NCBI RefSeq assembly: GCF_025716945.1
Contig: NZ_JAOVZT010000003.1
Coordinates: 335,898 to 399,897, forward strand
DNA length: 64,000 nucleotides
Reading direction: 5' to 3'
DNA from: Geodermatophilus sp. YIM 151500
Lineage (GTDB): Bacteria > Actinomycetota > Actinomycetes > Mycobacteriales > Geodermatophilaceae
Shown here: piece by piece, positions 52,594-54,893 of the stretch
Numbering within the stretch: position 1 is the stretch's first letter
How the letters are laid out: every line of letters begins with the position of its first letter
The notes under the pieces: model-generated
Seen by the model: the letters and a program-made list of their open reading frames with translations, nothing else
What the model was told of the DNA's origin: nothing
Database searches by the model: none
Program-made: the position numbers and the translations under genes

Positions 52594-52805
52594 GGGATCG
52601 TCCTCCAGGGTGATCGGTGCGGCGTCACCGACGGACGCCGGATCTCGTCGCGTGCTCAACCAGCGGAGGGCCGTTCGCATGCCGGCCTTCCGCAGATGTG
52701 ACGCCACTGTTGGGGATAACGGTTTGGTCGGGCCGGGCCACCTGGGTCCGGATCCCGGTGCCGTCCGGCCGTCTGACCCGACCGCCGGGCGGGTAGCGCG
52801 GGGAC

Positions 52806-53468
52806 GTGACCGAGTACGTCGACGTGACGGTGCCGCTCGTCCCGGGGCGGGTGCCGCTCTACCCCGGCGACACCGACCTCGTCGTCCGGCGCGACCAGCG
52901 GCGGTCCCTCGGCGACCTGGCGAACGTGTCGTCGATGACCTGCTCGCTGCACTGCGGGACGCACGTCGACGCCCCGGTGCACTTCCTCGACGGACGGGAG
53001 GGCGTCGACGCCGTCCCCCTCGACGCGCTCGTCGGACCGGCGTGGGTGGCCGACGCGACCGGGGTGCGCGGGGACATCGACGCCGCGGCCTTGGAAGGCA
53101 TCGACGTCCCGGACGACGCGACCCGGGTGCTGTTCCGGACGACGAACTCGGCGCTGTGGGACGAGCCGGCGTTCGTCGAGGACTACGTGTCCCTCACCCC
53201 CGACGCGGCCGCGGCGCTGGTCCGCCGCGGCGTCCGGCTCGTCGGGATCGACTACCTGTCCGTCGCCTCCTACCGCGAGCCGGCGCCCACGCACGAGGTC
53301 CTGCTCGACGCCGGGGTGGTCGTCCTGGAGACGCTCGACCTCCGCGCCGCCGAGCCGGGCCGGTGGCAGCTCACGTGCCTGCCCCTGCGCATCCCGGGCG
53401 CCGACGGCGCACCGGCGCGGGCCGTGCTGAGCCGGCCGGCCGCGGCCGGCGGGGGGCCGAGCCGCTAG
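52806..53468 (+). CDS. Second cyclase-family amidohydrolase
   Basis: This is a 220-residue protein of the cyclase/kynurenine formamidase fold. The start is VDVTVPLVPGRVPLYPGD. The metal site is HCGTHVDAPVHF (near residue 50), followed by LFRTTNSALW and the C-terminal LVGIDYLSVA. It is shorter than, and different from, the cyclase at 46178. The GTG at 52806 sits 6 bases after TAGCGC, close to the leaderless pattern, and has no Shine-Dalgarno. It may form a unit with the next two genes on the strand, which follow at short gaps. The substrate is unknown. Confidence 0.85.
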   Translation: MTEYVDVTVPLVPGRVPLYPGDTDLVVRRDQRRSLGDLANVSSMTCSLHCGTHVDAPVHFLDGREGVDAVPLDALVGPAWVADATGVRGDIDAAALEGIDVPDDATRVLFRTTNSALWDEPAFVEDYVSLTPDAAAALVRRGVRLVGIDYLSVASYREPAPTHEVLLDAGVVVLETLDLRAAEPGRWQLTCLPLRIPGADGAPARAVLSRPAAAGGGPSR

Positions 53469-53528
53469 CGCCGGCCCCGGCGCCGAGAGCCGGGGACCGC
53501 GGACCGGCGCGTCGGGCAGACTCCGGGG

Positions 53529-54113
53529 GTGACCCCAGGCACCCCCATCAGCCGGTTCCCCGTGGCGCCCCGGGCGTCGCTGCCCGCCGACCTGGCCGAG
53601 CGGTACGACGCGGTCGAGGAGCGGGCCGGCTTCCTGCCCAACATCTTCGCCGCCCTGGCGTGGCGCCCCGACGAGGCCCGCGCCTTCTTCGCCCTGCACG
53701 ACGCGCTGATGGACAAGGACACCCCCGGCCTGTCGAAGGGCGACCGGGAGCTGGTCGTCGTGGCGACCAGCGGGGCGAACGGCTGCCTGTACTGCGTCGT
53801 CGCGCACGGGGCGGTCGCCCGCATCCGCACCCGCGACCCCCACCTCGCCGACGAGGTGGCCGTCGACTGGCGGAAGGCGCCGCTGAGCCCGCGGATGCAC
53901 GCCGTCCTGGAGGTGGCCACCCGGCTGGCCACCGACCCGGCCGCGGTCACCGCGGACGACCTCGCCCGGCTGACCGGGCACGGCCTCACCGAGGACGACG
54001 TCTGGGACGTCGGCGCCATCACCTCGCTGTTCGCGCTGTCGAACCGGCTGGCGCACTTCGCCGCGATCCGGCCGAACGCCGAGTTCTTCTCGATGGGGCG
54101 CGAGCCGCGGTGA
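53529..54113 (+). CDS. Carboxymuconolactone decarboxylase/AhpD-like peroxidase-related protein
   Basis: This is a 194-residue protein of the CMD/AhpD fold. The redox CxxC motif is GCLYCVVAHGAV (near residue 80) and the following helix is conserved. GFLPNIFAALAWRPD and GLTEDDVWDVGAITS match peroxidase-related members, which act as disulfide reductase partners or peroxidases. The GTG at 53529 has a CAGACT box 6 bases upstream, near the leaderless pattern. It lies between the cyclase and the endonuclease V-like gene, on the same strand as both. Confidence 0.87.
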   Translation: MTPGTPISRFPVAPRASLPADLAERYDAVEERAGFLPNIFAALAWRPDEARAFFALHDALMDKDTPGLSKGDRELVVVATSGANGCLYCVVAHGAVARIRTRDPHLADEVAVDWRKAPLSPRMHAVLEVATRLATDPAAVTADDLARLTGHGLTEDDVWDVGAITSLFALSNRLAHFAAIRPNAEFFSMGREPR

Positions 54114-54158
54114 GGCCGGCCGCGAGGCTCCGCACCGGCGCCGGGTGAGCCCTGCCCG

Positions 54159-54893
54159 GTGACCCCGGAGGCGCACCCCCGCGGAGCCGGCGCGCTCTGG
54201 TCGGCCGACCCCGCGGCCGCCCGGGCCGAACAGCGGCGGCTGGCCGCCCTCGCCCCGCCGACCTGGCAGCCCGGCCCGCCGCCGTGGACCGTGGCCGGGG
54301 TCGCGCTCACCGCCGGCCCGGCCGACCACGAGGGCCGGGACCCGGTGCGGGCGGCCGCGGTCCTGCTGCGGGGATCGGAGGTCCTGGCGACCCGGGTCGA
54401 GGAGGCCGTCGCCCCCGCGCCCTACGTCGCCGGGCTGCAGGGCGTGCGCGAAGGCCCGCTGCTCGCCGTCGCGGTGCGCGGCCTCGGACGGCGTCCCGAC
54501 GTGCTGCTCGTCGCGGCGGCGGGCCGCGACCACCCCCGGCGGGCCGGTCTGGCGCTGCAGCTCGGCGCGGTGCTCGACGTCCCCACCGTCGGCGTCACCG
54601 ACCGCCCGCTGGCGGCCCGCGGGCCCCAGCCCGGCCCGGGCCGGGGCAGCACCGCTCCCCTGTTGCTCGACGGCGCCGACGTCGCCCGCTGGGTGCGGAC
54701 GGCGACCGGCGTCCGCCCGGTGGTCGCCTCCGCCGCCTGGCGGACGACCGCCGGGGTCGCGGCCGCCGTCGTGCTCGCGACGAGCTCGGGCGCGCGCACG
54801 CCGGAGCCGCTGCGCGAGGCCCGGCGGCTCGCGCGCACGGCGGGCCACGGCACGGCGGGGCAGCGCGCGGCGGGTGCGCGGCTCACGCGCTGA
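54159..54893 (+). CDS. Endonuclease V homologue lacking catalytic residues
   Basis: This is a 244-residue protein with the endonuclease V layout: PYVAGLQGVREGP (residues 88-100), DVLLVAAAGRDHPRRAGLAL (from 114) and a C-terminal ARTPEPLREARRLA. Active enzymes have an Asp in G-V-D, an Asp in LLVDGHG and a His in SPGHR. Here these are A49 (AGVALTA), A119 and the W of SAAWR, so three of the four catalytic residues known from the Thermotoga enzyme are lost and only the Glu (E98) remains. The reading frame is intact. It is probably a pseudoenzyme that still binds deaminated DNA or RNA. The stop overlaps the convergent YjdF-type gene by 11 bases. Confidence 0.8.
   Translation: MTPEAHPRGAGALWSADPAAARAEQRRLAALAPPTWQPGPPPWTVAGVALTAGPADHEGRDPVRAAAVLLRGSEVLATRVEEAVAPAPYVAGLQGVREGPLLAVAVRGLGRRPDVLLVAAAGRDHPRRAGLALQLGAVLDVPTVGVTDRPLAARGPQPGPGRGSTAPLLLDGADVARWVRTATGVRPVVASAAWRTTAGVAAAVVLATSSGARTPEPLREARRLARTAGHGTAGQRAAGARLTR

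Follow-up and report, generated by a model that had tools for sequence, protein, structure and literature searches.

The window, a 64,000-nucleotide stretch of the Geodermatophilus sp. YIM 151500 genome, carries on its forward strand an endonuclease V (EndoV)-like gene at positions 54159–54893, supported by the open reading frame list, a PF04493 match and an AlphaFold model. The gene starts with GTG, encodes 244 amino acids and ends in a stop codon at 54891–54893, and its GC content by codon position (0.88/0.67/0.96) is coding-like, so the intact frame described in an initial annotation of this DNA holds. A sequencing error or pseudogene in the window genome was rejected, as the frame is intact and the gene is one of seven intact copies in Geodermatophilaceae. 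An antisense open frame of 730 aa (52656–54848, reverse strand) spans the gene; GC content by codon position (0.96/0.60/0.80) identifies this frame as a shadow ORF produced by high-GC sequence. Upstream on the same strand, positions 52806–54113 encode a putative cyclase (PF04199) and a carboxymuconolactone decarboxylase-like protein (PF02627), and the intervals in the run formed by these genes and the EndoV-like gene measure about 60 and 45 bases. This upstream arrangement is not kept at the loci of relatives.

The window protein is an EndoV homologue with a complete EndoV fold

The window protein matches PF04493 (Endonuclease_5) over residues 44–221 with 109.2 bits (cut-off 23.4), as do all 17 members of the clade set A2, and phmmer pairs it with Streptomyces avermitilis EndoV (3goc, E = 1e-25). 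The AlphaFold model (pLDDT 86.9, pTM 0.85) aligns with Thermotoga EndoV (2w36) over 215 residues with Z 28.1 and rmsd 2.0 Å; confidence is low in the pocket loop A120–G130 (pLDDT about 61). A structure search with the model returned EndoV for all of the top 22 matches (Z 23–28). The protein is therefore an EndoV homologue with a complete EndoV fold, as first proposed from the sequence. Its score against the NCBIfam deoxyribonuclease V equivalog NF008629 (104.9 bits) lies below the cut-off of 230, compared with 374 for the E. coli enzyme.

We also compared the protein with Endo_dU. The PF01949 (Endo_dU) profile gives 12.2 bits against a cut-off of 32.7, a weak C-terminal match that classical EndoVs show similarly, and kinship with Endo_dU was rejected on this sequence evidence. 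The model aligns with Endo_dU of A. fulgidus (2QH9) over 148 residues at Z 14.9, well under the value for EndoV (Z 28).

Loss of the catalytic residues

We use Thermotoga (Tm) EndoV as the reference numbering, in an alignment with 48 classical EndoVs including Thermotoga, and clade counts refer to 25 aligned members. The roles of D43, D110, K139, H214 and the base pocket in EndoV have been described (PMC4650699). In the window protein, Tm D43, E89, D110, K139 and H214 correspond to A49, E98, A119, D148 and R222; all features given below lie on the forward strand and were placed by alignment. Among the metal ligands D43, E89 and D110, only one of the three is kept, E98 (54450–54452), with A49 (54303–54305) and A119 (54513–54515) at the positions of the two lost aspartates. 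Both phosphate-binding residues, K139 and H/D214, are absent, with R222 (54822–54824) standing where Thermotoga has the catalytic H214 (D210 in E. coli). As aligned, four of the five EndoV catalytic residues are gone and E98 alone is kept. The two alanines and the sole remaining glutamate agree with the initial annotation. Its claim that three of four catalytic residues were lost was right as to the loss and wrong as to the count, as it omitted K139 (D148). It had also read the active-site histidine as replaced by tryptophan; this residue, W194, sits at Tm H185, a column that is variable in active EndoVs (H 30, N 9, S 3 and F 3 of 48 classical sequences), and the true fourth position is R222.

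The same losses recur among relatives. The D43 column is never Asp in the clade (F 12, A 6, V 3, Y 2, W 2), compared with Asp in 45 of the 46 classical EndoVs that have a residue there. D110 is lost in 19 of 25 members (N 10, A 7, D 6, H 2), K139 in 25 of 25 and H/D214 in 25 of 25 (R in 24, V in one), and the E89 column reads Glu in 20, Asp in two and Ile, Val or Ala in three. Alanine itself is present in 6/25 members at the D43 column and 7/25 at the D110 column. Classically invariant columns were lost at four of five catalytic positions and at 9/40 others (Fisher p = 0.02). None of the profile, pairwise or multi-sequence alignments restores the catalytic residues; the three agree and 25 relatives share the losses, and an alignment error masking these residues was rejected. 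Because the losses are common to the whole 25-member clade and fixed in it, they are not chance decay, as had been suspected at the outset.

A largely retained base pocket and new invariant residues

The wedge tyrosine (Tm Y80) is kept as Y89 (54423–54425), and its column in the clade is Tyr in 23 members and Phe in two. The pocket loop AAGRDHPRRAG (A120–G130, 54516–54548) retains G122 and G130 (Tm G113 and G121) and H125-P-R, and carries a new invariant residue, D124, at Tm A115. In T147-D148-R149-P-L151 (54597–54611), K139 is lost and T147 and R149 are new, while the pocket leucine L151 (Tm L142) is kept. The tetrapeptide S191-A-A-W194 (54729–54740) ends in the new invariant W194, the tryptophan whose conservation was to be checked, found in 25 of 25 clade members; at position 191 (Tm S182), 23/25 members have a new His and the window protein has Ser.

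The six hypoxanthine pocket positions G83, L85, G111, G113, G121 and L142 are G92, Q94, A120, G122, G130 and L151 in the window protein, so the pocket is largely retained: four positions are identical to Tm, and the wedge Tyr Y89 is also present. L85, which is Gln in the window protein, is Leu in 21/25 of the clade. Tm G111 is always Ala in the clade, and likewise in 12/48 classical EndoVs, and the G83 column varies within the clade. H116 and R118 (Tm) are nearly constant, as are G113, G121, L142 and Y80.

Four residues atypical of classical EndoV are invariant in all 25 members (D124, T147, W194, L218), and two more, R149 and R222, are present in 24. T147, R149, L218 and R222 correspond to Tm A138, S140, T210 and H214, and the signature of the clade can be written GxDHPR - GVTxRPL - (H)xxWR - PLRxAR. 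The C-terminal helix R219–R226 is strongly conserved. Entropy within the clade is zero at Tm columns 111, 113, 115, 116 (H116), 121 and 142, and reaches 1.8–1.95 at the columns of D43, D110 and K139, above the clade median of 1.40. As the catalytic columns drift and most pocket columns are fixed, the cutting machinery has been freed from selection and the base-handling machinery held and modified. About 30 columns are invariant across the aligned members, and the window copy deviates from clade-conserved residues at three positions only.

A patchy clade with probable horizontal transfer

The clade comprises at least 25 proteins from Geodermatophilaceae, Acidimicrobiia, other Actinomycetota, Anaeromyxobacter and one Acidobacteriota MAG. 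In the tree, computed with catalytic and signature columns masked, all 25 fall on one side of a 100/100 branch. Orthologues from Blastococcus and Geodermatophilus with the same losses are 59–65% identical. A search of 84,980 named genomes added members from the Myxococcota species Anaeromyxobacter terrae and A. soli, together with MAGs of Acidimicrobiia and one of Acidobacteriota, and class and phylum samples yielded additional ones. The A2 profile cleanly separates the clade from classical EndoVs in the phylum sample (237–294 bits, with one truncated member at 175, versus at most 146). Intact copies share 47–67% identity across at least three phyla. A search of the accessible literature for an inactive bacterial EndoV clade found none, and the clade appears to be a previously unnoticed EndoV-derived branch.

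Presence is sporadic: Geodermatophilaceae have seven intact copies and two remnants in 115 genomes, and the gene occurs in 4/22 genomes of family f22 and 4/17 of family f55. The grouping of Anaeromyxobacter with Geodermatophilaceae (96/83) and the placement of f22 members in two parts of the tree point to horizontal transfer. Broken copies in Geodermatophilus aquaeductus (L009/L023, truncated), G045 (L011, with a stop) and G537 (second copy L133 on contig C33, frameshifted) indicate repeated gene loss. The broken G. aquaeductus copy lies in synteny with the intact G. saharensis gene.

Two other EndoV variants were seen alongside the clade. The sole non-clade EndoV found in Geodermatophilaceae (L010, G063:C1:1128650-1128910) has a very long branch (1.8), shows an apparent Gly in the D43 column, lacks Lys at K139 (GLTRKLL) and keeps E89, D110 and HPRR; by these residues it is possibly another partly degenerate EndoV. 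A reciprocal variant in f22 (L131/L147, G268:C3:2087919-2088284, minus strand) has D43-, E89-, D110- and K139-like positions (GAVDVQY, TREL, VIDGY, GVAKTPF), and its HPRR pocket loop is replaced by DGYATLDPSGRPGLGAHA, such that the recognition loop is lost and the apparent catalytic residues are kept.

Selection and genomic context

We estimated dN/dS by the Nei-Gojobori method for pairs from three lineages and for the window gene versus L003. The Anaeromyxobacter pair gave 0.37, the Blastococcus pair 0.34, the f22 pair 0.19 and the comparison of the window gene with L003 0.35. These values lie inside the range seen for genuine neighbour genes at the same loci or somewhat above it (about 0.13–0.43, from a list that contains some shadow ORFs). 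Substitutions among clade copies are biased to the third codon position. The gene is under constraint, moderately relaxed.

Clade loci have no gene neighbour conserved across genera beyond closely related genomes. Flanking genes are unrelated between loci (Rieske, PAC2, HSP20, alkaline phosphatase, AzlC and others), and the PAC2 neighbour recurs solely in two members of one family; an operon-based function was rejected because neighbours differ across genera. Viral or plasmid carriage was also rejected, as no relative turned up in IMG/VR and the plasmid matches stayed below 60% identity, with none reaching 80% query coverage; those that carry an annotation are labelled nfi. PADLOC anti-phage models gave no match for three clade members, and the only PHROGs match was non-significant (E = 0.065). 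The window genome has one PF04493 match, and a classical EndoV alongside the clade gene was absent from every carrier searched, so that an accessory paralogue beside a normal EndoV was rejected. Mutual exclusion with classical EndoV is suggestive and confounded by taxonomy, since carrier families rarely have classical EndoV.

A probable base binder and its alternatives

On the established chemistry of EndoV, with its metal and phosphate clamp, a protein that lacks D43, D110, K139 and H214 should be unable to cleave, and cleavage by the classical EndoV mechanism appears very unlikely from the residues present. Our leading reading, to which we give a probability of roughly 0.45, is that the window protein belongs to a non-cutting EndoV-fold clade and is most likely a base-flipping nucleic-acid binder. 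We infer base binding, the ligand, the absence of any cleavage and a cellular role as follows. The wedge tyrosine would part the strands, the retained glycine/leucine pocket would hold hypoxanthine or a related purine as the modified or deaminated base, and the new Asp124 and Thr147 may tune specificity. With D43, D110, K139 and H214 gone, the phosphodiester would be left unhydrolysed and the protein would remain bound as a marker or shield. The initial suggestion of a reader of deaminated bases would be compatible with such a role. Several observations weigh against a binder. Hypoxanthine may no longer be the ligand, as G111 is Ala, G83 varies and an invariant acid adjoins the pocket; ligand preference may thus have changed, given this fixed Asp in a loop modelled with low confidence. 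The retention of E89 in 20/25 members would be odd for a metal-free site, no conserved neighbour gene indicates a pathway, and Endo_dU offers the analogy of an EndoV-fold protein that cuts without the tetrad.

The main alternative, a serious one though less probable than the binder, is a rebuilt active site in which D124-H125 and E98, together with R149, W194 and R222 as new residues, would carry out nucleic-acid cleavage or another base or nucleotide reaction. D124, T147 and R149 beside the pocket could point to new chemistry or to a different ligand, and the invariance or near-invariance of six residues atypical of classical EndoV and the mostly kept E89 favour this explanation, as does the lack of classical EndoV in carriers, which the clade protein might replace. 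Endo_dU (DUF99) lacks the first Asp and carries a positively charged residue in fourth place, yet cuts dU DNA; this activity requires the last of the conserved residues, an H/D/R in its final helix (PMC11585767). However, the PF01949 match is far under the cut-off and equally seen in classical EndoVs, the old site has no constant acidic cluster (three members have I, V or A in place of E98, and N, A, D or H occurs at position 110), and D124 is placed by alignment in the low-confidence loop after the pocket. It is unlikely that the gene is instead a relaxed accessory, gained by transfer, with little function and decaying: patchy presence, the seven intact copies and two remnants, the damaged copies in G. 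aquaeductus, G045 and G537 and the moderate dN/dS (0.19–0.37) would fit, but the identity kept across at least three phyla with about 30 invariant columns, the third-position bias and the few deviations of the window copy argue against it, and a new signature would not survive decay. Scaffold proteins commonly arise when an enzyme loses catalysis and keeps its fold, and the conserved helix R219–R226 would suit a dead nuclease fold that acts in regulation or protein-protein contacts without base recognition; we regard this as improbable, as conservation is highest in the wedge and pocket loop, which face the nucleic acid, rather than on random surface.

Taken across the binder and rebuilt-site readings, we consider it likely that this is a separate, horizontally mobile EndoV-derived family that exchanged inosine cleavage for a stand-alone role as reader or shield of purines, deaminated or otherwise modified, in DNA or RNA, or for a new catalytic centre beside the pocket. 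The initial observation of an EndoV-derived protein is confirmed and enlarged to a clade, and its non-cutting interpretation is plausible on the residues retained and lost.

Implications and comparison with known systems

We know of no established bacterial proteins that recognise inosine without cutting. If the clade proteins only bind, they would be natural binders of inosine or a modified base, usable as probes, and EndoV would follow the route from nuclease to non-cutting binder taken by inactive Argonautes. If they hold a new active site, they would represent a new repair or restriction enzyme family. They receive the endonuclease V label from automatic annotation and should not be called deoxyribonuclease V; on either reading, genomes with the clade form alone should not count as having EndoV repair.

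The window protein shares with classical EndoV (Nfi; PF04493; T. maritima 2W35, E. coli 4XPU, S. avermitilis 3GOC) the whole fold, the wedge Tyr, most hypoxanthine-pocket residues, the HPR loop and E89. It differs in the loss of D43, D110, K139 and H214 and in belonging to a clade of its own, marked by a distinct set of invariant residues. Endo_dU (DUF99, PF01949; 2QH9) has an RNase H-like fold related to EndoV, likewise lacks conservation of the first Asp and has a basic residue at the fourth tetrad position, and is without the EndoV N-terminal helix. Engineered inactive EndoVs (mouse D52A; Tm D110N and E89Q in the PDB) have lost a metal ligand and keep fold and substrate binding, a binding that is predicted for the window clade. 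Mouse D52A, altered at the equivalent of D43, has no incision activity left yet gives a stronger shift of inosine RNA than the wild-type enzyme (PMC4842958), and serves as the precedent for the base-binder reading. These are laboratory point mutants, whereas in the window clade four positions were changed by evolution.
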